Below are positions 14,971 to 52,652 of a stretch of 64,000 bases of DNA, in pieces. The position numbers and the translations under genes were made by a program. Position 1 is the first letter of the stretch, and each line of letters begins with the position of its first letter. Location of the stretch: positions 186,001 to 250,000 of the forward strand of contig NZ_QZWD01000002.1 in NCBI RefSeq assembly GCF_003602005.1, written 5' to 3'. The notes under the pieces were generated by a model that saw only the letters and a program-made list of their open reading frames with translations, ran no database searches and was not told where the DNA came from. The DNA comes from Salinisphaera sp. Q1T1-3 (GTDB lineage Bacteria > Pseudomonadota > Gammaproteobacteria > Nevskiales > Salinisphaeraceae).

Positions 14971-15369
14971 CTAATCGCCGAACGCGCGCTCGAGTTGCTG
15001 GCGGTTCGGGTTGACCGCGCCGTGGTCGAGACGACGATCCCGCTGCCGGTCAGGCAGCGCAGAATGATCGTGCCAGCCGCCGTGCCGGCGATGGCCCGGA
15101 CTATAGCTGTGGTGGCCATCGGGCAGGTGATGCAACTGTCGCGGCAGGGCCTGCAACGCCCGGGGATGTGTCGACTGGCGTTCGGGGACGTACAGATTGC
15201 CGCTCATGGTGCCGTTCGGCCCGGTCGCCTGGCTCTGGGCACCGGCGCCATCGACGACGGGCATCGGTATTGCCGTCTGTGCTCCGACCGGACCGGCCAG
15301 CGCCAGACCGATGCCTAGCGTGATCACGGTCCGTCGACGGGCATGGTTTCGGTTCGTGGCCCAATGCAT
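14971..15369 (-). CDS. small exported protein of unknown function
   Basis: 132 residues from the ATG at 15369, which has GGGAGGA six bases upstream. Residues 1-32 form a signal peptide: positive RNHARRR, hydrophobic ITLGIGLALAG, then VGAQTA as a likely cleavage site. The mature part is rich in Gly, Pro, Ser, Asn, His and Arg, with LYVPERQSTHPRALQALPRQLHHLPDG and a His/Arg/Pro-rich middle; there is no hydrophobic segment or Cys. I do not recognise a family. The good ribosome site and signal peptide support a real gene; the low-complexity tail lowers certainty. Confidence 0.55.
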   Translation of the reverse strand: MHWATNRNHARRRTVITLGIGLALAGPVGAQTAIPMPVVDGAGAQSQATGPNGTMSGNLYVPERQSTHPRALQALPRQLHHLPDGHHSYSPGHRRHGGWHDHSALPDRQRDRRLDHGAVNPNRQQLERAFGD

Positions 15370-37394: not shown

Positions 37395-38243
37395 ATGAGC
37401 GACATCCAGATCAACCGGCCCAACACGCCGGCCGAACTACAGCAACGGATACTCGCGCAGTACCCGAACCTGTCGAAACGGCTGCAACAGATCGCCCAGT
37501 TCGCGGTCGACCATCCCAACGACATGGCACTGGAAACCACGGCCGTGATCGCCGAGCGGGCGGCGGTACAGCCGTCGGCCATCATCCGGTTCGCCAAGGC
37601 TTTCGGTTTCTCCGGCTTCTCCGAGCTTCAGCGCATCTACCAGACCCGTCTGGCTGAAACCGCGTCCAGCTACAGCGAACGACTGCGGCGGCTGCGTCAC
37701 GAGGAAAGCCGGGACGGCGATACCTCGGCTCGCGCCATCCTGCAGGAGTTCTGCTACGCCAACCGCATGTCGCTCGAACATCTCGGCGAAGACATCGACG
37801 CCCAGGCGCTGGAACAGGCCGCCGACATCATGGCCGGCGCGCGGCGCATCCACCTGTGCGGCCAGCGCCGCTCGTTCCCGGTCGTCGCCTACATGGGCTA
37901 TGCCCTCGGGCAGATCGATGCCGACGTCACCCTGCTCGACGGCCTGGGCGGCATGCTCGAACAGCAGGCGGCGCGTATCGCGGCCGACGATGTATTGTTC
38001 GCCGTGTCGTTCCACCCCTATGCCGAAGAAACCGCCGACATCATCCGCCGCGCCCACGAAAACGGCGCCCCCATCATTGCCCTCACCGACAGCCCCCTGA
38101 GCCCGGTCGCCGCCCACGCCACCGTCTGCCTGGAAGTCCACGACGCGGAGCTACACAATTTCCGGTCACTGACGGCCTCCATGTGCCTGGCCCAGGCGTT
38201 GACCGTTGCGGTTGGCCTCAGTCTGAACGACGAGTCGAAATAA
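37395..38243 (+). CDS. iolR: MurR/RpiR-family regulator, probable IolR
   Basis: 282 residues. Residues about 10-85 are the RpiR-type winged HTH (LSKRLQQIAQFAVDHPNDMAL ... VQPSAIIRFAKAFGFSGFSELQRIYQ). Residues about 125-265 are a SIS sugar-isomerase domain (ARRIHLCGQRRSFPVVAYMGYALG ... ALTDSPLSPVAAHATVCLEV) that would sense a phosphorylated or keto intermediate. Rhizobial IolR of this family binds GGAA-N6-TTCC, and that palindrome, or a close variant, occurs in front of at least five transcription units here. It is the last gene of the cluster, 104 bp after the ATPase. The ATG at 37395 follows AGGGAG. Confidence 0.88.
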   Translation: MSDIQINRPNTPAELQQRILAQYPNLSKRLQQIAQFAVDHPNDMALETTAVIAERAAVQPSAIIRFAKAFGFSGFSELQRIYQTRLAETASSYSERLRRLRHEESRDGDTSARAILQEFCYANRMSLEHLGEDIDAQALEQAADIMAGARRIHLCGQRRSFPVVAYMGYALGQIDADVTLLDGLGGMLEQQAARIAADDVLFAVSFHPYAEETADIIRRAHENGAPIIALTDSPLSPVAAHATVCLEVHDAELHNFRSLTASMCLAQALTVAVGLSLNDESK

Positions 38244-38289: not shown

Positions 38290-41200
38290 TTTCTGAGCTG
38301 CCTACGCGGCAGCGAACTCTATCGCCAGCACATGGGCGTCGACGAGTTCTTTCTGAGCTGCCTACGCGGCAGCGAACGAGCGTCTGCACGCCGAGTTTGC
38401 GCGAGGTCATTTCTGAGCTGCCTACGCGGTAGCGAACACGACGTGACTCTTATAAGTGCTAACGACAACTTTCTGAGCTGCCTACGCGGCAGCGAACCCG
38501 GCATCGGCCCTCTCGTCGACAAATTCCGAGTTTCTGAGCTGCCTACGCGGCAGCGAACATGCGCGCGCGGCACAGGTAGGCCAGTTCCATTTTCTGAGCT
38601 GCCTACGCGGCAGCGAACACGCTCGGCGATACGTCGGCGGCGATGGGCAATTTCTGAGCTGCCTACGCGGCAGCGAACCCGCGTGGGAGCGCTCGGCGTG
38701 CCTGATATCATTTCTGAGCTGCCTACGCGGCAGCGAACGCGTGGATACGACGTGACAATAACGGAGTGGTTTTCTGAGCTGCCTACGCGGCAGCGAACGG
38801 GCGAGAGCTGTCGTGCCGTCTGGCCGACGCTTTCTGAGCTGCCTACGCGGCAGCGAACATCCGGCCCCTGAACGATCATCCAATTATCAATTTCTGAGCT
38901 GCCTACGCGGCAGCGAACGCCCATCCGCCCACCGAATGAGTATTTCTGAGCTGCCTACGCGGCAGCGAACACTGCCGCTGGTTTTTATCTTGCCCAGGCT
39001 GTTTTCTGAGCTGCCTACGCGGCAGCGAACGGCATCGGCTGCTGCGGGGCGAATGTGATGTATTTCTGAGCTGCCTACGCGGCAGCGAACATCCGAATGG
39101 TTGCTGTTGTTGAGGTCCGCATTTTCTGAGCTGCCTACGCGGCAGCGAACCACGCGCGATGCCCAGCCGCCCGTTAGCGACTTTTCTGAGCTGCCTACGC
39201 GGCAGCGAACTCGCCGATATTTGTTGGAGTCAGCCGCGCTTCTTTCTGAGCTGCCTACGCGGCAGCGAACAACGGCTCGTTGATGGCGCTGTCTCGATTG
39301 TTTTTCTGAGCTGCCTACGCGGCAGCGAACGGCGCCCCGCCCGCCGGCAGCGACGACGACCTTTTCTGAGCTGCCTACGCGGCAGCGAACCAAGGCTTTG
39401 CGCAGTGTCTTCTGATCGTCGCTTTCTGAGCTGCCTACGCGGCAGCGAACAAAACCCAGCGCAGCATCACCGACTGGATCGATTTCTGAGCTGCCTACGC
39501 GGCAGCGAACTCGCCGCACGCCTCGCAAAGCATCCGGCCGGTTTTCTGAGCTGCCTACGCGGCAGCGAACCGGCCCAGGGCGGCAGCGCATGGCATCCCG
39601 ATTTTCTGAGCTGCCTACGCGGCAGCGAACTGCGCGGTTGCAGCGGCGCGGTTTGTTGGATTTTTCTGAGCTGCCTACGCGGCAGCGAACCGGCTGCAGG
39701 CCAAGGGCTGGTGGGGTATCAATTTCTGAGCTGCCTACGCGGCAGCGAACGCGAAAAACGCCGAGGATGCGGCCACGGTTCATTTCTGAGCTGCCTACGC
39801 GGCAGCGAACGTGTATCGAAAAAGGGCTGCGCTCGTTGTGCATTTCTGAGCTGCCTACGCGGCAGCGAACTCTAGAGAGCGGCCAATGTCCTGACCGCGT
39901 TTTTTCTGAGCTGCCTACGCGGCAGCGAACGACCAACGTCGATTTAACGTTTCGACGCGGCGTTTCTGAGCTGCCTACGCGGCAGCGAACCAATGGCTTG
40001 CTGATGTGGAGTGCGAACACGTTTTCTGAGCTGCCTACGCGGCAGCGAACAATGATCGGATAACGATCGTTCAATGGCTTCATTTCTGAGCTGCCTACGC
40101 GGCAGCGAACCTATTGGAGAGGTAACGAAAGGCTAGAGTCTTTTTCTGAGCTGCCTACGCGGCAGCGAACGTTCGCGAGATATACGCCAACGCCCCCGAA
40201 TATTTCTGAGCTGCCTACGCGGCAGCGAACCGCCGGAATATCACGCGGTGCATTCGCGATCGTTTCTGAGCTGCCTACGCGGCAGCGAACACGGGGTACG
40301 GACATGCAAACAAAAAAAGAGTTTTCTGAGCTGCCTACGCGGCAGCGAACATCAAGCATGATCTGGCCGCCGTCTGCCTCGCGTTTCTGAGCTGCCTACG
40401 CGGCAGCGAACCGTCGCGTCGTGATGCGGCTCGGCAACACGCATTTCTGAGCTGCCTACGCGGCAGCGAACGGCGTAATACCGCAGCACGTCCGAATGGG
40501 TCGTTTCTGAGCTGCCTACGCGGCAGCGAACCTTGTTGAACAGCTCTCGGCTGGGCCGGGTCTTTTCTGAGCTGCCTACGCGGCAGCGAACGGTCGGGCG
40601 GCGGCGCCACGACTGATGATAACTTTCTGAGCTGCCTACGCGGCAGCGAACGTCGCTCGTGACGATTTCGCGGAGCGCTTTCATTTCTGAGCTGCCTACG
40701 CGGCAGCGAACGTGACACGATGCCGGCCACGCGTGAATATCTCTTTCTGAGCTGCCTACGCGGCAGCGAACCCTGTGTTGCCGTCGTGCCAAACCTGATT
40801 GCCTTTCTGAGCTGCCTACGCGGCAGCGAACGTGACGTCCATCTGGGCTAGGTCGGCCAGAGATTTCTGAGCTGCCTACGCGGCAGCGAACTGTATGGCG
40901 ACCTTCAGCCGGAGGCGTTGGCATTTCTGAGCTGCCTACGCGGCAGCGAACCCCGGCGATCGGAGCTGATGGCCCGTATTCGATTTCTGAGCTGCCTACG
41001 CGGCAGCGAACATTCGTCAGATGAAATGCCCACCGTTCGACGATTTCTGAGCTGCCTACGCGGCAGCGAACGCGGGGTACTACACCAGCGTAGTCGTGCT
41101 AATTTTCTGAGCTGCCTACGCGGCAGCGAACGGGTGACGCAGTGCATCAACGCAGGCGCGCTCTTTCTGAGCTGCCTACGCGGCAGCGAACCGACTGGCC

Positions 41201-41311
41201 GGCGGCCCGGCCGTCATGGTCGATTTCTGAGCTGCCTACGCGGCAGCGAACCAAATGCCGCCGGGCCCGGGCATCTTGCCCTGTTTCTGAGCTGCCTACG
41301 CGGCAGCGAAC
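38290..41311 (-). CRISPR. type I-F CRISPR array 1 (51 repeats, 50 spacers)
   Basis: 28-bp repeat; on the transcribed (-) strand it begins GTTCGCTGCCGCGTAGGCAG and ends CTCAGAAA, with the I-F hairpin CTGCC/GGCAG. Spacers are 32 bp except two of 33 (one ending at 38530, one ending at 40383) and one of only 24 (38919-38942). The leader is at the high-coordinate end, so the newest spacers are near 41280 and the oldest near 38320. The third repeat from the old end has GGT for GGC. The second-newest spacer (about 41192-41223) is identical to the newest spacer of array 2. Open frames across the array are artefacts of the repeat. Confidence 0.98.
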
Positions 41312-41443
41312 TAGAGCTAAAAGCTCGTATATAGCTGATTCTTAAAGACCTGGGTTTGTGTTGTGCCTCACAACCCTTTTTATAAGGCGATCTGTAAGTG
41401 ATTGATTTATAAATAGCCTTGGATTTGTCGCCAAAAAGGGTCA
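41312..41443 (-). promoter_or_regulatory. leader of array 1
   Basis: Conserved with the array 2 leader at fixed distances from the last repeat: TAGAGC directly at the repeat, TTAAAGA at about 30, an IHF consensus at 84 and GGGTCA at 127 bases. The outermost motif overlaps the cas6f stop codon, so this leader begins inside the end of the cas operon. AT-rich TATA-type boxes (TATATA at about 41330, TATAAAAAG on the - strand near 41388) may start the pre-crRNA. Confidence 0.85.
41395..41407 (-). promoter_or_regulatory. IHF consensus site in leader 1
   Basis: On the - strand AATCAATCACTTA fits the IHF consensus WATCAANNNNTTR at every fixed position. It starts 84 bases from the array edge, the same as in leader 2. 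IHF bending of the leader is required for Cas1-Cas2/3 integration in type I-F systems. Confidence 0.75.
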
Positions 41444-43058: not shown

Positions 43059-44021
43059 TCAGTTTTTGGCGTGCTGCGTGGCGTAGTCGTTGTTCAGTCG
43101 ATAGATGCCCTGGTCGAGGTCGTTGTCGACATACCAGAGCAGGGCTTCCGGTCGGTTCAGCCGATGCGGGCTCACCCATTGCCCGATGGAATAAAGGCTT
43201 TCGACAAATCGAAACGGCGTTGTCGTATCGCGCGCTTTCGCGACTTCACCCGGATCATGTCGCGGGCTCAGGGCGCCGTAGCCCACCGGAATGGGTACAT
43301 GCCAGCCGGGTCGGCTCCGAATTTCCCAGCGGCCATGATCAGCGTTGTCGTCTGTGTGGTAGTCGTGATGCAGGCGGGCGAAATCGAGCCAGGCATCGAG
43401 TAGGCCTGCATTCGGATCGTTTGCTTGCAGTTCCTCGAGCCGACCCTGTAATACCGGCTCGTTGAGCACGAGCGTGAAGCCGGGCAGAAGCGTCCGTTTG
43501 AGCTGGCGGAATTGTTGTTCGTATTCCGTGCTGTCGTCGGACAGGGTATGTAGCTTCGGCCGCGGCTGCTTGCCATGGCTGTCGCCCAGAATGCTGCCGC
43601 CCGCGAGTCGCATGCCGTGAACGTGCTCGAAGATCGCGTCGGCCACGCGCTGCCGGGCCTCGTTGCTCCCGATACAGTTATCGCCGCGGACCGAAAACAC
43701 CAGCGAGATATCCATATGCATCCGGCCTTCCTCGGCAATGGCGGCTGTGGTGCCATCCTTGCCGACCGGATTACGCGTGAGATGGAATTGTTGCAGGTTG
43801 TAGCCGGCAGGCGATGACTGAATTTCGTGCGAGTGACAGACCACGCCGACGCCCTTGAAGGCCAGCCAGTCGTCGTCCGGCAGGCGTCGGTCCAGCGCAT
43901 GCATGAAGCCGACAAAAGCGCTCATTGCGGGGAAGCCCCAGGTCATCGGGCTGGAAATCGCGTTGGCGTTCTGTACCTTCAGGTGGGGCAGGGTGAGCAG
44001 ATGGCGTGGTTTATCGGTCAT
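43059..44021 (-). CDS. csy2: Cas5f (Csy2)
   Basis: 320 residues. [40 protein letters not shown] is the Csy2 N-terminal pattern; [14 protein letters not shown] and [14 protein letters not shown] are further family segments. It caps the 5' end of the crRNA together with Csy1 in the I-F surveillance complex. Its ATG overlaps the csy1 3' end by 11 bp, which implies translational coupling. Confidence 0.96.
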
Positions 44022-45369
44022 CGTCGATCACCTCCGCGAAGCCGGCCATTTCGGCCTGCAGATCGGCCTGCCATTCCCGGTAGGTCTCGGCCAGGGTGGC
44101 CACGTTCTGGTCCTTGGCTGCCGATTGAGCGAAATGCCGATGTTCGGGATCGCCCATGGCCAGTTTCCAGAAGTACTCGAGCCGTCCGTTCAGCCAGCGG
44201 CTGAAATCCGCGCAGATGGTCGTCAGCCAGTCGGTGTCTGCCATCTCGGCGCGAAACTCGTTGTCTTCGGCCGCTCGAAACGGGTCGAGCCAGCATTGAT
44301 GCGCGAAGGCAAGCCGGCAGTGCCAGTGATCGGTCCAACCGGGTTCGAGCTGATGCATCTCAGAAGTAAAGACGATGAGTTCATCGACCAACGCACGCGT
44401 GAGCTCGTCACGCCGATCGCGTGTATCCATATTGGGCTCGGGATCGCCGGCGAGCATATGGCCCAGCGCTCGCAGATTGCGGCGGACATCCGGGCGCCGG
44501 CCAAAGGCCGTGAACGCCGATGAGCCGTGGATGGGCGAGACATGGCGCGAGCGCCAAGTCGGCGGGGCGCAACTCAACAGATAGTTGTTGCCGCCGCGTT
44601 CGCTGTTCAGCTGCGAGATGTTCTGTGGCTTGCTGCCGCCAAAGCGTTGAACGGCCAGACCGGGATAATCCACGTAGCCATGGTCGGCGGGTTCGCCTTT
44701 TTTACGCGCCTCACGAGCGGCCTTGGCCGTATCAGAGAACCGGTCATCGTTGATGGTGCGGAATACCCGATGCGCCAGCGATGTGGCGTAGAGCGGCGAT
44801 ACGAGATGAAAATCGTCGTTGAGCGAGGGATCGTCACCGACCAACCAGTAAAGCTGCTTGCCACGCTTGTGCGACGACAGTTGCCCGGACGGCTCGGTGA
44901 TCGTCGCGAAATCGCGCATCAACTGCTGTGCGACTGCCGGGTCGTCGCTCAAGGCCGCGGCTAACTGCTCGTCCCCTTGTTCGACGCGCTCCAGCAGCGT
45001 TCGGCCATCGTGCTCCAGCTTGAGGAGTTTGAAAACGTCCAGTGCCGCCGCGTTGCCGACCACGTCCACCGTGAAATCATCGTCAAGCGTATGCGTACCG
45101 ATGGTGTGCGATACGGTGTCGTCCCGGGGCGGGGCATAAAGGCTGGAGCCCTTGGCGTCGGGATGGACCGGTTTGAGTGAGTGGGTAACGACCTGAAGTT
45201 GGGCGACGCGGCGGGCCGCGTCCGTCAGCCAGGTCTCGTAGTGAAACTGATCGGTGAGTTTTTGGTACTGCGGTTCGTCGGTCGACAGCTTTTCGGTTTT
45301 AGCCGCAAACCGCTCACCCAGGAAGCGTTCGATCGTCGATCGGAGCGCTTTCGCTTGCGTTTCGGACAT
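44011..45369 (-). CDS. csy1: Cas8f (Csy1), large subunit and PAM reader
   Basis: 452 residues. Typical Csy1 segments: TWLTDAARRVAQLQVVTHSLKPVHPDAKGSS, LDVFKLLKLEHDGRTLLERV, VDYPGLAVQRFGGSKPQNISQLNSERGG and LLSCAPPTWRSR. Csy1 contacts the CC PAM in target DNA and the crRNA 5' handle. The ATG at 45369 has GAGGAA upstream. The nearest upstream element is a strong terminator-type hairpin at 45405-45437, so its transcription must come from read-through of the cas1 operon or of the small unit described at 45405-45615, or from an unseen promoter. Confidence 0.96.
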   Translation of the reverse strand: MSETQAKALRSTIERFLGERFAAKTEKLSTDEPQYQKLTDQFHYETWLTDAARRVAQLQVVTHSLKPVHPDAKGSSLYAPPRDDTVSHTIGTHTLDDDFTVDVVGNAAALDVFKLLKLEHDGRTLLERVEQGDEQLAAALSDDPAVAQQLMRDFATITEPSGQLSSHKRGKQLYWLVGDDPSLNDDFHLVSPLYATSLAHRVFRTINDDRFSDTAKAAREARKKGEPADHGYVDYPGLAVQRFGGSKPQNISQLNSERGGNNYLLSCAPPTWRSRHVSPIHGSSAFTAFGRRPDVRRNLRALGHMLAGDPEPNMDTRDRRDELTRALVDELIVFTSEMHQLEPGWTDHWHCRLAFAHQCWLDPFRAAEDNEFRAEMADTDWLTTICADFSRWLNGRLEYFWKLAMGDPEHRHFAQSAAKDQNVATLAETYREWQADLQAEMAGFAEVIDDDR

Positions 45370-45404: not shown

Positions 45405-45437
45405 ATGAGGCACAGAGCTGCGAGCCCTGTGCCTCAT
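45405..45437 (-). terminator. 11-bp terminator hairpin before csy1
   Basis: ATGAGGCACAG (45405-45415) and CTGTGCCTCAT (45427-45437) form a perfect 11-bp stem with an 11-nt loop. On the - strand the stem is followed at once by TTTT; on the + strand by AGTTTT, so it could stop transcripts from both sides. It closes the short unit containing the 9-codon ORF. Confidence 0.8.
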
Positions 45438-45456: not shown

Positions 45457-45486
45457 TTATATCTCAACGGCATGTTTGCAAGACAT
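45457..45486 (-). CDS. 9-codon ORF with strong Shine-Dalgarno: CreT-like toxin candidate
   Basis: Encodes MSCKHAVEI and stops with TAA. AAGGAGG ends eight bases before the ATG, stronger than the site of any cas gene here. The penultimate codon is ATA, the rare isoleucine codon. Hairpins at 45556-45582 and 45405-45437 frame it, and a CRISPR-type self-target lies just behind its promoter. Known CreT toxins are small RNAs with a strong ribosome site and a mini-ORF that ties up a rare tRNA; one uses AUA codons. An overlapping frame from the ATG at 45509 (18 codons, no ribosome site) has consecutive ATA AGG AGG codons and is the alternative. Toxicity is inference. Confidence 0.5.
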   Translation of the reverse strand: MSCKHAVEI

Positions 45487-45555
45487 GACGCGCTCCTCCT
45501 TATCCACATTGAACCGGTGGATTCGGTTGCGATCGTCTCGATTCGCTAGCTCTTT

Positions 45556-45582
45556 ACAGGCGGTGCTGGAACCACCGCCTGT
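45556..45582 (-). other. 10-bp hairpin at the 5' end of the mini-ORF transcript
   Basis: ACAGGCGGTG (45556-45565) pairs perfectly with CACCGCCTGT (45573-45582) over 7 nt. A start about 7 nt after the proposed -10 box puts this hairpin at the extreme 5' end of the RNA, where it would protect a short transcript. On the + strand it is followed by ATTTATT and could also act as a weak terminator. Confidence 0.6.
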
Positions 45583-45586
45583 ATTT

Positions 45587-45615
45587 ATTCAACCACTCGC
45601 TGGCTCAAACGTCAA
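45587..45615 (-). promoter_or_regulatory. promoter of the CreT-like unit
   Basis: On the - strand TTGACG (45615-45610) and TTGAAT (45592-45587) are separated by 17 bp: a good -35 and a moderate -10. The CC PAM of the self-target at 45616-45617 directly touches the -35 box. A second candidate on the same strand is TATACT at 45670-45665, without a good -35. Confidence 0.55.
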
Positions 45616-45643
45616 CCAGCTTATCTTTTCTTCAACTTATCTT
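45616..45643 (+). promoter_or_regulatory. CC PAM and self-target of the crRNA-like guide
   Basis: CC at 45616-45617 is followed by a protospacer starting AGCTTATCTTTTCTTCAACT. Against the guide at 45705-45730 it matches at 18 of the first 22 positions; mismatches are 6, 9, 12 and 18, so three of four fall on the flipped-out sixth positions. Matching stops after position 22. Extended seed pairing with a broken distal part is expected to allow binding without strong Cas3 cleavage. The site lies immediately behind the promoter that faces csy1. Confidence 0.7.
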
Positions 45644-45676: not shown

Positions 45677-45758
45677 AGCGGCAGCCGGATAGGTTGCTCA
45701 GCAAAGCTTTTCATTGCTTCAGCTTACAAAGTTCGCTGCCGCATAGGCAGTTTTCAGC
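45677..45758 (+). ncRNA. crRNA-like antitoxin/regulator guide (CreA-like)
   Basis: A minimal one-spacer CRISPR on the + strand, opposite to the arrays. The first repeat (45677-45704) has lost its 5' part but keeps the 3' half: stem CAGCC/GGTTG with a compensatory A-T pair, then handle CTCAGCAA (one base from CTCAGAAA). The second repeat (45731-45758) matches the array repeat at 19 of its first 20 bases, then diverges. Cas6f cutting after 45696 and 45750 would give an 8-nt handle, a 26-nt guide (six shorter than normal) and a 20-nt 3' stem-loop. A TATACG box at 45665-45670 could start it. The second repeat overlaps the cas2-3 stop. This is the pattern reported for CreA genes. Confidence 0.75.
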
Positions 45759-48700
45759 GGCGTTTAAACCCGAGCCAGGGATGCGTGAGCCACCCCTGGC
45801 TCGTCTCGTCATCGCCGTTCAACTGCAAGGTGCCGAACGTCCGCGCGCAGTGCGCCAGTCCCATATCGCGGTCGTCTGCCAGCCTGTACAGCTCGGTCAT
45901 GTAATCGACGTTGGCCCAGGGGGTGATGCGCTCGGCTTGTAGTTCGTCGTCCGGCACGCGCTGGTTGAGCCGCTGTTCAACCTCTCTCTCGATCGGTGGG
46001 CCTTTCTTCTGTGATTCGCTGCGCACCAGCCGGTAGTCGGTTTCGTCTTCGGTGGGCAGTAGCACGAGATCGATGGATTGGCCGTGCTGCTTACGAAAGC
46101 GTTGCTGCTGCGGCAGGAGCCCGGTTAACCAAAGATCGGAACGGCTGTAGGCGCTATGGGCAGCCAGCCTGGGCGGCTCCGGCTTCAAGGCGGCGCGGCG
46201 GCCTCGGGACCGCTTCCCTGAGTCCGCTTCGTTATGGCCCGCGTGATCGGGGGCAAGCATTGCGTCCGCCATTCGGGCGTGTTCGAGGTCGGCCAGGCGT
46301 TGGGCCGGGGCGAGTGGTTCGCGCGCCGTCAGGCGAGGCCGCGAATCGATGATCTCGTATTCATTCGGGGCCAGTACATCGCTCAGTGCATGGGCGGTGA
46401 GCTGGAAATCACCGTCCTCGAAACCCGGCCGGATGAAGGCGCGCCCGTCCTGTGCACCGGCGATGGATCGCCAATTCCGATCGAGCAGGGCAATGTTGGG
46501 TTTGTCGACCGGCGCCGTGCGGTGCCGTCGTATGCGGCCGGCCAGCTGGATAATCGAACGCATGGATGACGGCTCGACCACCGCCCAGTCGTAATCATGA
46601 TCACGACCGACTTCGGTTACCGGTGAACCGAGCACGATGAATAGTTGGTCCGGTTCGCTGGCGTTATCCAGGCGTTGCCGGATGTCGGGCAGGCGATACG
46701 CGGCATCCGGCTCGCGTCGGTCGAGCGTTTCATCCAGCGTGCGTTCGATGGCCGAACGGGCAAGCAACGGGAACTGTGAGTGGTAGACACAAAGATGAAC
46801 CCGGCAATCCGCAGGCGCATCTCGGGCATAAAGCGCCCGGGCCACCTCGAATAGCGGCCCGATATTGGCCATGCGGATGAGCCCGAAGCTGACACGATGG
46901 CCGGTCACGGGGTCGATTTGGTGATGCCGGGCATGCAGCGTATGGGCTTGTTCGAGTAACTGGTCGGCGAACTGCCGAGGCAGTTTGTCGCGTTTACGCG
47001 GTGTGAAGCCGATCGGTGCGATTGCACCGCGCTGGCGAGTCTCGGCCGTTGCAAGATTTCCGGCACGTTTCTCGGCGAACGCGTTGTGTGCGGTTCGGAA
47101 GGCCGGGCTATCGGCGCAGTCGTGGTGCCGTTGGTCGTGCTCGTCGAACCAGGCACAACAGATATCGACCGGCTGGCCGGGTTCGCCGCGATTCTTCTGG
47201 AACTCGACGCGCCCCGAGCGATACGCCCGAAACAGGCCTTCGACCATGGCCGGCGGCAGTGTGGCCGAGGACAGTACAACGCGCGAGCCGAGCAAACCGG
47301 CACAGTAGACCAGCCGCGTCAGCGCGGGCATGTCGTCCATCCCGAAATCGTCCGGCTCGTCCAGGATCAAGTCCGAGCCCATCAGACGGAGCATCGGTGC
47401 GATCTGTTGGCCGCCGCGCAGGCTTTCGGTCGCCGGCATGAGATGGTCAATCGTGCAGACGAGAATCGGCGCGCTAATGAGCGAGCGCGCATGCGGCGAT
47501 TCCACGACCTTGGACAAGAGCGGGTGCCGATCGATCTGGCCCTCGTAGTGGACGTAACTGTCGGTATCGAGCAGCGGTTCGGCGGAACCCGCGCCGCGGG
47601 CGTCGAGTTCGGCCTGGTGCTGCTCGAACAGGGCACGCGTGGCCTGACCGCCCACGCGTACCGCCAGATGATCGCTCGACAGGTTGAGATCGTGTCGATA
47701 GGCCTCGCCCGTCTGTAGCGTCAATGTGCGTAGACCGAGTGCGATCGTGAAGCGCGTGCCGCGATCTGGGTCGGCCAGCGCATAACAGATCCGGCCGTTG
47801 GCCAGAGTCTTGCCACGGCCGGTCGAGGCCATATTCACGCCGAAAAAACCCTGGTTCGCGCTCCGCTCTCGTATCGAGCCGGCCAGATCGAACGCCCGAT
47901 CCTGCCAACGGAAACGCGAATTTTGGGTGCGTTTGCGAAATCCCTTGTGGCGGGCAATACGCGGTAGGGCGGCGACCATATCGGGCAGGCGGTGCGTAAT
48001 CTCGCCGACTTCCTGCGTGACGCCGAGCAGGTGATCGTCCAGCCGCTGCGCGAGGGCGCCGCTCTTGTCCGTGTTGGCAAACAGTGGGTATCCGGCGTCG
48101 CCCAGCGTGTTCTTGCTATTCGCCTGGTCGCTTTGGCTCGAGTAGTGATGATCGGCGAGCATCAGGCTTAGCCGGGCGACATGAATCGCGTAGATGTTGT
48201 CGAGCGCGAGTCCGTTGGCCTCTGGCGCGCGCGACAGCGCTTGTCGTGCCAGCCGACTCGCCCGTTTACGCCAGGCCTCGCTTCGCAGGGGCAAGCCTTC
48301 GGCGAACTGCCAATACGGCGCGATCACTGTCTTATCGGGCGGGGCATCGATCTCGTTCCAGGCGGCTTCGATGCCGTCGGGTAACGCGGGCAGTGAGGAT
48401 GCATTGACGCCGGTCGCCGCGCGGCCGATGGGTTGTTGTTTGCCGTCGTCGCCGTAACTCGGATGGACCGGCAAACGATGATGCGACAGGATCAGCCAGG
48501 CAATGCTGCGGGCCAGCGGCGGCAGGCCCACCAACGGCAACGACGTCGCCTCGTCCAGGCCGTCACGCCTCGTGGCATCGAGCCATGCCGTCTCGTCGAT
48601 AGCGTCGGCCTCATATAGCCGGTTCAGCCAGTCGGCGTCGTAGGCGGCATCGCCGACAAACGCCTGAAACAACCGCAGCGAGATCCACTCGTGCCGATAA

Positions 48701-49134
48701 CGATTGCGCTCGGTATTCCGCCCGCGCAGCTTGTTCTGAAAAGCGAGGCATGCCTTGCCGAAATCGTGAAACAGCGCGGCGAGGCTGGCGACCAGATGGA
48801 TATCGGCCAGTGTATGCCAGTCGTTCTCATCGGCTTTTCTTAACACGTCGCTGCGCGTGGTGTGTGTCGGTGTCGCACCGCGCATATTGAAACGCGATGC
48901 ATCGCCGACCACCCACATGAGTTCGCTGTGGTCACGGCCCCGTATCCAGTGACAGGCGACCGCCGTGTTCTTGCGCGCTGTCTTGCGCAGCATCTTGCGA
49001 AGGGTATCGAGCCCGGCTTTCGTGATCGGCGTCTGCCAGGTTCGATCGCCGCGGCGTTCGGCGAACTGGTCCAGAATCCGGCGCGTCTCCTTGAGTGCAT
49101 TCTTGTTGCACTGCGAGACGAGCAGGATATTCAC
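45754..49134 (-). CDS. cas3: Cas2-Cas3 fusion nuclease-helicase
   Basis: 1126 residues. Residues 1 to about 95 are the Cas2 domain (NILLVSQCNKNALKETRRILDQF...), which with Cas1 integrates spacers. HD nuclease motif in AALFHDFGKACLAF; helicase Walker A in STGRGKT; Walker B-type DLILDEPDDF; later helicase motifs SSATLP and QLAGRIRRH. I-F systems carry this fusion. The start is the GTG at 49134, which overlaps the cas1 stop (GTGA); longer in-frame starts lie inside cas1. The C-terminus ends just within the second repeat of the crRNA-like unit. Confidence 0.96.
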   Translation of the reverse strand: MNILLVSQCNKNALKETRRILDQFAERRGDRTWQTPITKAGLDTLRKMLRKTARKNTAVACHWIRGRDHSELMWVVGDASRFNMRGATPTHTTRSDVLRKADENDWHTLADIHLVASLAALFHDFGKACLAFQNKLRGRNTERNRYRHEWISLRLFQAFVGDAAYDADWLNRLYEADAIDETAWLDATRRDGLDEATSLPLVGLPPLARSIAWLILSHHRLPVHPSYGDDGKQQPIGRAATGVNASSLPALPDGIEAAWNEIDAPPDKTVIAPYWQFAEGLPLRSEAWRKRASRLARQALSRAPEANGLALDNIYAIHVARLSLMLADHHYSSQSDQANSKNTLGDAGYPLFANTDKSGALAQRLDDHLLGVTQEVGEITHRLPDMVAALPRIARHKGFRKRTQNSRFRWQDRAFDLAGSIRERSANQGFFGVNMASTGRGKTLANGRICYALADPDRGTRFTIALGLRTLTLQTGEAYRHDLNLSSDHLAVRVGGQATRALFEQHQAELDARGAGSAEPLLDTDSYVHYEGQIDRHPLLSKVVESPHARSLISAPILVCTIDHLMPATESLRGGQQIAPMLRLMGSDLILDEPDDFGMDDMPALTRLVYCAGLLGSRVVLSSATLPPAMVEGLFRAYRSGRVEFQKNRGEPGQPVDICCAWFDEHDQRHHDCADSPAFRTAHNAFAEKRAGNLATAETRQRGAIAPIGFTPRKRDKLPRQFADQLLEQAHTLHARHHQIDPVTGHRVSFGLIRMANIGPLFEVARALYARDAPADCRVHLCVYHSQFPLLARSAIERTLDETLDRREPDAAYRLPDIRQRLDNASEPDQLFIVLGSPVTEVGRDHDYDWAVVEPSSMRSIIQLAGRIRRHRTAPVDKPNIALLDRNWRSIAGAQDGRAFIRPGFEDGDFQLTAHALSDVLAPNEYEIIDSRPRLTAREPLAPAQRLADLEHARMADAMLAPDHAGHNEADSGKRSRGRRAALKPEPPRLAAHSAYSRSDLWLTGLLPQQQRFRKQHGQSIDLVLLPTEDETDYRLVRSESQKKGPPIEREVEQRLNQRVPDDELQAERITPWANVDYMTELYRLADDRDMGLAHCARTFGTLQLNGDDETSQGWLTHPWLGFKRR

Positions 49135-50387: not shown

Positions 50388-52520
50388 TTTTTCGGCTGCC
50401 TACGCGGCAGCGAACATTAATACCAGTATGGTGCGAAATGCCCAGGATTTCTGAGCTGCCTGCGCGGAAGCGAACTTTCAGAAGGAGGGCGAAATGACTG
50501 TCGAGGATTTCTGAGCTGCCTACGCGGCAGCGAACGTCGTCTCGACAGCCGGGAAAGCATTTGACCATTTCTGAGCTGCCTACGCGGCAGCGAACCGAAC
50601 AATGGCCGCTTATGTATTTGAACAGATTTTCTGAGCTGCCTACGCGGCAGCGAACAGCATGCGCTCGGCGCTGACGTGAGTTTGTCCTTTCTGAGCTGCC
50701 TACGCGGCAGCGAACGTAGTACCCCCTAAGTCCTCAAAGGAAGCAAGGTTTCTGAGCTGCCTACGCGGCAGCGAACGTTATGCCCCTACGAATTGAATGC
50801 GCTTTTCCTTTCTGAGCTGCCTACGCGGCAGCGAACCAGGACGAAACGGCTTGGTCGAATCGCATCATTTTCTGAGCTGCCTACGCGGCAGCGAACGTGC
50901 AGGTTGAGCCGAAACGGGGTCGCGCCGTGTTTCTGAGCTGCCTACGCGGCAGCGAACATCCAACGCCGCATTGCCGCTGTCGATGTACGGTTTCTGAGCT
51001 GCCTACGCGGCAGCGAACTGATGCTGTCTGCGTACTCGCGCGTCTCTGCCTTTCTGAGCTGCCTACGCGGCAGCGAACCATTACCCATGCCCCTGCGTCG
51101 TGTTCGCAGCTTTCTGAGCTGCCTACGCGGCAGCGAACGACGACGCTCTCGCAGCGCTTGCGGATCGTTTTTTCTGAGCTGCCTACGCGGCAGCGAACAC
51201 GCCTGAAATCAGAATGGCGCGGTTAAATACTTTCTGAGCTGCCTACGCGGCAGCGAACGTTACTTGGTCGCGTGTTGTGTTCGCTGTCCTTTTCTGAGCT
51301 GCCTACGCGGCAGCGAACTTGAAGCGCGTCGAACACTGGATCGACCAATCATTTCTGAGCTGCCTACGCGGCAGCGAACATCGACACGGAACGTATCGCC
51401 ATCGTAGATGCTTTTCTGAGCTGCCTACGCGGCAGCGAACGCCCGATCATGTCGGATCTTCGCGAGTCGGGCTTTCTGAGCTGCCTACGCGGCAGCGAAC
51501 GTCTTCGATGAAGAAATCGTCTCCGTGCCAATTTTCTGAGCTGCCTACGCGGCAGCGAACGCCGAGCAGGTGCGCGCCGGTCTGGGCGATCTTTTCTGAG
51601 CTGCCTACGCGGCAGCGAACGTATATTCGTGGTCGACGGGTAACACGTTCGGTTTCTGAGCTGCCTACGCGGCAGCGAACTGCGTATGCAACGATCGCAG
51701 GTCTCAACGATTTTTCTGAGCTGCCTACGCGGCAGCGAACCGTCCTCGGCATGATCGGTCGATAGGCCATCTTTTCTGAGCTGCCTACGCGGCAGCGAAC
51801 TTGCGTCGATTCATCCCGCCCTCGTCCGTAATTTTCTGAGCTGCCTACGCGGCAGCGAACCGCCAGCGCGCCAGCCGTATACAACGGATTCTTTTCTGAG
51901 CTGCCTACGCGGCAGCGAACAACGTATCGGATTCGTTGTGCGTCGACGCCTCTTTCTGAGCTGCCTACGCGGCAGCGAACCGTGGCGCTGTCGTGAGCGC
52001 CGAGATTTTCCGTTTCTGAGCTGCCTACGCGGCAGCGAACGGCAAGGACGGCATGGTCTACAGCGGGGCGAATTTCTGAGCTGCCTACGCGGCAGCGAAC
52101 CCAATAACCGCTATGTCATAAAAGGCCCCGATTTTCTGAGCTGCCTACGCGGCAGCGAACGCCTTGCGATTGACCTGAATCCGAGCGAAACCTTTCTGAG
52201 CTGCCTACGCGGCAGCGAACGGCGACAGCAATGCAGCGATTGGCCGCGTCGGTTTCTGAGCTGCCTACGCGGCAGCGAACGCTGCCGGTCAACCCGTCGG
52301 TCTGGCGAATCTTTTCTGAGCTGCCTACGCGGCAGCGAACCATCCGGGTTTCGGATAGCGCTCGGTTGAATTTTTCTGAGCTGCCTACGCGGCAGCGAAC
52401 CGCAGCGACCTGCAAACCGATTACAAAGGCCTTTTCTGAGCTGCCTACGCGGCAGCGAACCGACTGGCCGGCGGCCCGGCCGTCATGGTCGATTTCTGAG
52501 CTGCCTACGCGGCAGCGAAC
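50388..52520 (-). CRISPR. type I-F CRISPR array 2 (36 repeats, 35 spacers)
   Basis: Same 28-bp repeat and orientation as array 1; leader at the high-coordinate end. The two oldest repeats are degenerate: the one at 50388-50415 has three changes in its first seven bases, and the one at 50448-50475 has TGC for TAC and GGA for GGC. Spacers are 32 bp, a few 33. The newest spacer (52461-52492) is the one shared with array 1. Confidence 0.98.
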
Positions 52521-52652
52521 TAGAGCGAAATCACTGTAGCGCTTTGTTGTTAAAGAGCCGAGGCCTATTTTGTCCGAATCACCCCTTTTTGACAGCGCTT
52601 CTGTAAGTGATTGATTTCTTGTGCTGATTATACGGGGGGCAAAAAAGGGTCA
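52521..52652 (-). promoter_or_regulatory. leader of array 2
   Basis: Shares with leader 1, at the same distances from the last repeat, TAGAGC, a TTAAAGA-type box, the IHF site and the GGGTCA motif, while the sequence between has drifted. It separates the array from the convergent EamA gene. Confidence 0.85.
52604..52616 (-). promoter_or_regulatory. IHF consensus site in leader 2
   Basis: AATCAATCACTTA on the - strand, the same 13 bases as in leader 1 and again 84 bases from the array edge; fits WATCAANNNNTTR fully. Confidence 0.75.

Follow-up and report, generated by a model that had tools for sequence, protein, structure and literature searches.

In CreTA modules, the CRISPR machinery restrains a tiny toxic RNA, so that loss of CRISPR is punished. 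The type I-B modules of the haloarchaea H. hispanica and H. hubeiense combine divergently degenerated repeats with a partial match between the guide and a promoter, in which positions 6 and 12 are unpaired and positions 1–5 and 7–11 form the seed, and their CreT RNAs, which carry two consecutive rare codons, sequester Arg and Ile tRNAs (PMC8501985). In the type I-F modules of Acinetobacter (sp. WCHA45, LoGeW2-3 and ANC3789), creA and creT lie opposite to each other in a cas3–csy1 gap of ~400 bp, the two psi-repeats of creA keep their stems, the CreA RNA was sequenced as 8 + 20 + 20 nt, and a partial target flanked by CC, the I-F PAM, is located between the two genes (PMC10097628). There, a Shine–Dalgarno (SD) sequence precedes a mini-ORF, and a 5-bp hairpin with a 7-nt loop, centred on the AUG, is required for CreT toxicity (PMC10097628). 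The same work mentions 19 further modules found by hand beyond the first three (methods) and "a dozen homologs" (discussion), and a Salinisphaera module may already be among them; our literature search found no CreTA from Salinisphaera, nor any from Halomonas. In the related CreR systems, the partial match of a mini-CRISPR sends the effector to a cas-locus promoter (PMC13131331, PMC12948488, PMC12737573). CreR is generally uncoupled from a toxin gene (PMC12737573), and is described for types I-B, I-E and V-A (PMC13131331) or for type I and V-A generally (PMC12737573); the accessible passages of two reviews describe no type I-F CreR, and one of them calls CreR widespread in type I (PMC12948488, PMC12737573).

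Here we describe a segment of a 64,000-nt stretch of DNA from Salinisphaera sp. Q1T1-3 (hereafter referred to as the window) that is very probably the creA gene of a type I-F CreTA module filling the gap between cas2-3 and csy1, in which RNA processing, repression and toxicity are expected by analogy with the published relatives. The type I-F system of the window is encoded on the minus strand, in the order array (50388–52520), cas1, cas2-3, gap, csy1, csy2, csy3, cas6f and array (38290–41311), and 84 of the 87 copies of the array repeat GTTCGCTGCCGCGTAGGCAGCTCAGAAA in the two arrays (minus strand) are identical. A 38-nt direct repeat (79%) is found ~60 bp past the high-coordinate ends of the arrays, at 41371–41408 and 52580–52617, and probably represents their matching leader ends. 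The cas2-3/csy1 gap spans 384 bp, and its features, together with the flanking genes, are as follows.

45754–49113, minus strand: cas2-3 (Cas23f)
45677–45704, plus strand: creA psi-repeat 1, 18/28 identical to the array repeat; 5′ part degenerate, stem CAGCC/GGTTG and 8-nt handle CTCAGCAA kept
45705–45730, plus strand: creA guide (psi-spacer), 26 nt, between the two psi-repeats
45731–45758, plus strand: creA psi-repeat 2, 21/28 identical to the array repeat and 19/20 over the first 20 nt; 5′-handle part lost
45697–45750, plus strand: predicted mature CreA RNA, 8 + 26 + 20 = 54 nt, assuming that Cas6f cuts at the stem base
45618–45639, plus strand: CreA target (protospacer), 18/22 identical to the guide
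45616–45617, plus strand: CC PAM of the CreA target, from the sequence
45610–45615, minus strand: TTGACG resembling a −35 box, assigned to the presumed promoter of creT; read from the sequence, directly adjoining the PAM
45592–45587, minus strand: −10-like TTGAAT, weak, read from the sequence
45555–45583, minus strand: 11-bp stem-loop close to where the creT RNA is expected to begin, −20.9 kcal/mol, z −6.67; terminator-like if read on the plus strand
45495–45501, minus strand: creT Shine–Dalgarno sequence AAGGAGG, 7 nt, from the sequence
45457–45486, minus strand: SD-led creT mini-ORF, 9 codons, 30 bp (ATG TCT TGC AAA CAT GCC GTT GAG ATA TAA)
45471–45487, minus strand: 5-bp start-codon hairpin CAUGU-CUUGCAA-ACAUG, in which codon 5 pairs with the AUG; z −1.81, −1.7 kcal/mol
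45405–45437, minus strand: terminator-like stem-loop past creT, 15 bp followed by UUU, −26.1 kcal/mol, z −5.36
44011–45369, minus strand: csy1 (cas8f, Cas8f/Csy1); starts 35 nt past the terminator-like stem-loop

The first-pass annotation of this DNA had claimed two degenerate I-F repeats, separated by 26 bp, on the strand opposite to both arrays, between cas2-3 and csy1. The repeat pair is indeed present and its place in the gap stands, except that the last 5 bases of copy 2 fall within the end of cas2-3. The divergent decay described there was likewise confirmed: copy 1 has lost its 5′ part and keeps a stem with a swapped A-T pair and one G-T wobble, as well as a handle that is one base off the array handle CTCAGAAA, and copy 2 has lost the handle part and keeps the first 20 nt, which correspond to the 3′ handle of the mature RNA. 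The guide is thus flanked by divergently degenerated repeats, as in both the haloarchaeal (PMC8501985) and the Acinetobacter (PMC10097628) modules, and both copies fold (z −2.97 and −3.18, respectively). Among ungapped matches to the repeat outside the arrays, on both strands of the 64 kb, copy 2 ranks first (21 matching bases; the next, with 20, is at 15038), and it alone was matched by Rfam CRISPR-DR4, at 23.7 bits (E 0.34), under the gathering score of 35. Copy 1 (18) shares third rank with two further sites on the plus strand, and its resemblance to the repeat, taken alone, is not significant. The weight lies with the repeat pair.

The best non-self match of the guide in the 64 kb begins at 45618, upstream of creA at a distance of 37 bp. 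It matches 18 of the 26 guide positions, all within the first 22, with mismatches at positions 6, 9, 12, 18 and 23–26, so that a CC-flanked partial target lies between creA and creT. The free positions 6 and 12 are those of the haloarchaeal modules (PMC8501985). The next-best CC-flanked site, at 37614 (16/26), is mismatched at positions 1, 6, 9, 10 and 11 and at five later ones, and was taken as a chance match. When the 3.87-Mb assembly of the window's genome was searched, allowing up to three mismatches, with a pattern made of the PAM and those of the first 20 positions at which this very target matches the guide, this target was the sole CC-flanked site; the pattern also matched creA itself, without a PAM, and a reversed control pattern gave one match.

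On its PAM side, the target faces the presumed creT promoter. The promoter call rests on the TTGACG beside the PAM, because a consensus sigma-70 promoter scan of the gap found none; no separate csy1 promoter is visible either. The target is thus at the −35 end of the presumed promoter, whereas in Acinetobacter it is downstream of the start site (PMC10097628). The 246 bp between the PAM and csy1 hold the mini-ORF, which is divergent from creA and downstream of the target, and the terminator-like hairpin, which was not among the calls of a stricter terminator scan. The mini-ORF ends in the rare codon ATA (1.05 per 1,000 codons in 11 window genes), preceded by GAG, and thus has a single rare codon and no tandem rare pair of the tRNA-sequestering kind. 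Its start-codon hairpin, with a 7-nt loop, is weak and absent from the minimum-energy fold of its 65-nt context, although all five pairs are possible.

Overall, the module resembles those of Acinetobacter in its gap position, gene orientation, psi-repeats, CC-flanked target, SD sequence and start-codon hairpin, and differs in genus, in guide length (26 versus 20 nt) and in mini-ORF length (30 versus 33 bp) (PMC10097628). Within the hairpin, the window has U4-A12 and C5, and both changes (U4-G12 to U4-A12, and U5 to C) were tolerated in Acinetobacter CreT (PMC10097628). The window loop carries U7, whereas the Acinetobacter loop carries A7 (third codon AGC), where toxicity was lost on transversion of six of the seven loop bases, base 7 among them (PMC10097628). 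Since U7 belongs to this class of changes, the mechanism may differ from that of Acinetobacter CreT. As to the pairing of loop bases 5–9 with 23S rRNA, a mark of type I-F CreTA, the search found no 23S match in the assemblies of the window's genome and of its relative Salinisphaera sp. UBA1666. With H. hubeiense CreT, the window creT shares the rare AUA codon and a stem-loop past the mini-ORF, and with H. hispanica the strong SD sequence, which H. hubeiense CreT lacks; the haloarchaeal modules belong to type I-B and have two consecutive rare codons, compared with one in the window (PMC8501985). Because the hairpin is kept but there is only one rare codon, the window creT might kill by either the hairpin or the rare-codon mode; given also U7, the weakness of the hairpin and the negative promoter scan, its toxin may be weakened or act differently.

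A whole-genome comparison places the window's genome (G000) in one genus with Salinisphaera orenii (G003), S. halophila (G004) and Salinisphaera sp. UBA1666 (G006, survey locus L057), and csy1 is present in 6 of the 14 genomes examined, including the window's own. UBA1666 has the same module layout, again with a handle-bearing first and a second repeat that keeps the first 20 nt, and a different guide, AGACTGTCGTTTGCTCAAAT, which matches its own target at 17 of 20 positions. The stems of both repeats and the handle CTCAGCAA have been preserved there and not randomly substituted, a possibility that the first-pass annotation had proposed to examine in relatives. The guides match their own targets at 16/20 (window) and 17/20 (UBA1666) positions, and the crossed pairs at 9/20 and 13/20; guide and target changed together at five positions (3, 4, 13, 14 and 19). 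Its mini-ORF begins ATG TCT AGC GAG CAT and has TTA ATA at codons 8–9. G003 and G004 have gaps of ~100 bp and no module. The modules of two other Salinisphaera, G001 and G002 (L027 and L028), have another mini-ORF, GTG AAA GAC CGT CGC AGA AGA, with AGA AGA at codons 6–7, a pair absent from G000 and G006. The toxin-like gene thus varies within the genus, given that this mini-ORF is unlike that of G000 and G006, and the difference is, as judged from sequence, an apparent toxin exchange within a genus.

We surveyed the cas3–csy1 gaps of 111 csy1 loci, comprising 31 from the genome set and the 80 best among 470 named loci; L024, L025 and L026 had been dropped beforehand as duplicates of L057, L085 and L058. 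The 31 loci with gaps under 150 bp were left unscanned, leaving 80 gaps, and for five loci without cas3 in reach, 1,500 bp or the available sequence was scanned. A fixed rule, written after the first cases had been seen and requiring four or more of the five stem pairs, was applied to these gaps. On the strand opposite to csy1 it detected mini-CRISPRs in 45 of the 80, the window included, and hence in 45 of the 111 loci, a rate not to be extended to all I-F systems, as the loci were chosen for closeness to the window csy1 or drawn from its class. Because L106 duplicates L029, the distinct loci number 110, and 44 of them have a module. Shuffled gaps, scored on the opposite strand only, gave 16 hits in 1,600 (1%), and the same rule run on the csy1 strand gave two weak matches in 80 gaps (L027 and L038), both of which also contain an opposite one. 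A chance resemblance to the repeat would fit the rank of copy 1, which two other places in the 64 kb equal and the one at 15038 exceeds, and its probability is nevertheless negligible in view of this excess of real over shuffled gaps, the target, the PAM and the relatives.

After L099, L106 and L113 were dropped as identical, 42 distinct guides remained. In 39 of these 42 modules, the cognate CC-flanked match exceeds that of every non-cognate guide; the exceptions are L129 (11 versus 14, no target), L066 (12 versus 12, weak) and L074 (16 versus 17), which loses to one other guide. We regard the cognate site as convincing for 40 of the 42 distinct guides. In the 36 modules with guides of at least 18 nt (L066 and L129 excluded), own pairs match at a mean of 14.6 of 18 positions, and crossed pairs at a mean of 5.6 and a maximum of 15. 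L129 aside, 40 of 41 sites are on the creA strand, the target of L081 being on the other; in the remaining 40 modules, excluding L081, TTGA occurs 0–2 nt from the PAM in 20, compared with 35 of the 2,085 remaining GG dinucleotides of the gaps. Natural double changes also separate sister modules, for example at position 3 in L061/L064 and at positions 10, 13 and 17 in L118/L135. In L129 (Carnimonas nigrificans), the 32-nt guide has no cognate target in the gap, and a creT-like mini-ORF, ATG GTT GGT TAT CAT TCC GGT AGA AGA TAA, lies nearer csy1; the pair has perhaps been displaced or rewired.

The mismatches follow a regular pattern. Over 41 modules (L066 included, L129 excluded), none occurs at any of positions 1–5, 36/41 are mismatched at position 6, 14/205 over positions 7–11, 34/41 at position 12, none at position 13 and 24/37 at position 18. 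Position 14, which is not an every-sixth position, is mismatched in 13/41, beside the never-mismatched position 13. The length of the window guide had been remarked on as one six-base step under 32 nt, which fits the survey, where 20 of the 42 distinct guides have a length of 32 nt less some multiple of 6, a count given without a p-value as the species are related. A worn-out, functionless one-spacer array would account for the degenerate state of both window repeats and for the one module in 42 (L129) whose gap lacks a cognate target. Such an array is very unlikely, as the guide has changed together with its target without loss of stem or handle and the mismatches recur by sixes, although the stem conservation in the survey set is partly a product of the rule; the first 22 nt of the guide have no exact match in viral_contigs, by itself a weak argument. 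A lone mini-CRISPR or decayed array was rejected because the cognate CC-flanked target co-changes with the guide in relatives.

We then compared the mini-ORFs of the modules. A fixed SD rule for ORFs of 7–15 codons found one in 29 of 41 modules; 9 modules with less than 170 nt past the target, L032, L038 and L052 without an SD-led ORF, and L129 were left out of the hairpin count, and the rule-picked ORFs of L081 and L089, which look wrong, were retained as picked. A hairpin of at least 8 bp is present at the corresponding 5′ part in 14 of the 29 modules (shuffled, 40/580), and a terminator-like hairpin at the corresponding place past the mini-ORF in 22 of 29 (shuffled, 16/580). The start codon is fully pairable with codon 5 in 25 of the 29 mini-ORFs, compared with 4 of 80 SD-less ORFs of the same regions, and ATG-CAT and GTG-CAC are swapped for each other. 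Among 26 distinct 17-mers, whose pairs were counted ungapped as a MAFFT alignment shifted three rows, pairing between codons 1 and 5 is complete in 22 (shuffle mean 17.0, reached by 1 of 10,000) and pair 1:15 is Watson–Crick in 23 (shuffle mean 12.2, reached by 0 of 10,000); the outer pairs are looser, with −1:16 pairable in 18/26 and 4:12 in 19/26.

Codons AGA, AGG, ATA, TTA and CTA were taken as rare, their rarity being counted only in the 11 window genes. Tandem rare codons (AGA AGA, AGG AGA, ATA ATA, TTA TTA or mixed) occupy codons 8–9 in 21 of the 29 mini-ORFs and codons 6–7 in two further Salinisphaera, and occur anywhere in 7 of 80 controls. The gap of L077 (Pokkaliibacter plantistimulans) contains two mini-ORFs of the creT kind, both with start codon–codon 5 pairing and AGA AGA. 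In L083 (Halomonas sp. DQ26W) and L128 (Xylophilus sp. ASV27), codons 8–9 are TTA TTA, a pair that would implicate the leucine tRNA for UUA, in addition to the AGA and AUA kinds already described. A literature search, outside which most subscription papers lay, found no CreT of the UUA type; in the accessible passages, UUA is a stop-codon mutant in PMC8501985, and the text of PMC12737573 contains neither UUA nor leucine.

The first-pass annotation had likened the segment to creA or to a cas-regulating guide and left the choice between them open. The likeness holds, and the target and the mini-ORF, both absent from that annotation, as were the PAM and the relatives, favour CreA over a cas regulator. 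In the latter case, guide-loaded Csy would repress a promoter that mainly serves csy1–csy4, and the mini-ORF and stem-loop would be a leader or attenuator and no toxin. We consider this unlikely: the gap mini-ORF with its strong SD sequence and start-codon hairpin is kept in relatives, the tandem rare codons of 21/29 mini-ORFs resemble those of tRNA-sequestering toxins, and, unlike in CreR, the window promoter faces a mini-ORF and a terminator-like hairpin that stands between it and csy1. In its favour, the 35 nt between the stem-loop and the csy1 start were judged too short for a csy1 promoter, so that csy1 may be transcribed by read-through from the targeted promoter, and in 9 of 41 modules no more than 150 bp separate the target from csy1. 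In 7 of these, no SD-led mini-ORF was found; the remaining two are ambiguous, namely L066, with its weak target, and L105, with creA ~1 kb away. In L051, L061, L064, L066, L082, L084/L099, L088 and L108, the best CC-flanked site is at most ~140 bp from csy1, with no SD-led mini-ORF between them except in L066. Such csy1-near mini-CRISPRs without an SD-led mini-ORF are candidate type I-F CreR (cas-regulating) guides. The window does not belong to this group, as its PAM is 246 bp from csy1, with the mini-ORF and the terminator-like hairpin in the interval.

On the preferred CreTA reading, Cas6f would cut a short plus-strand transcript inside both degenerate repeats, and the resulting CreA RNA would load the Csy complex, which would bind the CC-flanked site by the −35 box of creT and block creT transcription; Cas3 recruitment is not expected, because pairing is partial (18/22). 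If the Csy complex or Cas6f were lost or inhibited, creT would be transcribed. The creT RNA, with its strong SD sequence, start codon within a hairpin, 9-codon ORF ending in the rare AUA and strong stem-loop, would then tie up translation and harm the cell, which would thus depend on its own CRISPR–Cas system. A more speculative and rather doubtful possibility is that one guide has two jobs, in that CreA–Csy represses a promoter that serves creT, with its toxic RNA, and also csy1–csy4 whenever transcription runs past the terminator; the toxin would be a composite of a start-codon hairpin and a rare-codon trap at codons 8–9, with a target tRNA that is swapped between lineages (Arg AGA, Ile AUA or Leu UUA).

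These findings extend the probable range of the CreTA safeguard to a further genus and suggest that the cas3–csy1 gap of I-F loci, within the survey sample, often houses such a module. The natural guide–target pairs amount to a large mutation test, in which bases 1–5 never mismatch and each sixth base is mostly free, and the mismatch pattern and guide lengths provide testable statements on the shortest Csy complex that still represses. If the dual reading is true, losing or inhibiting Csy would at first increase the amount of Csy made, with poisoning of the cell to follow only later, and CRISPR dose control and addiction would share one switch.
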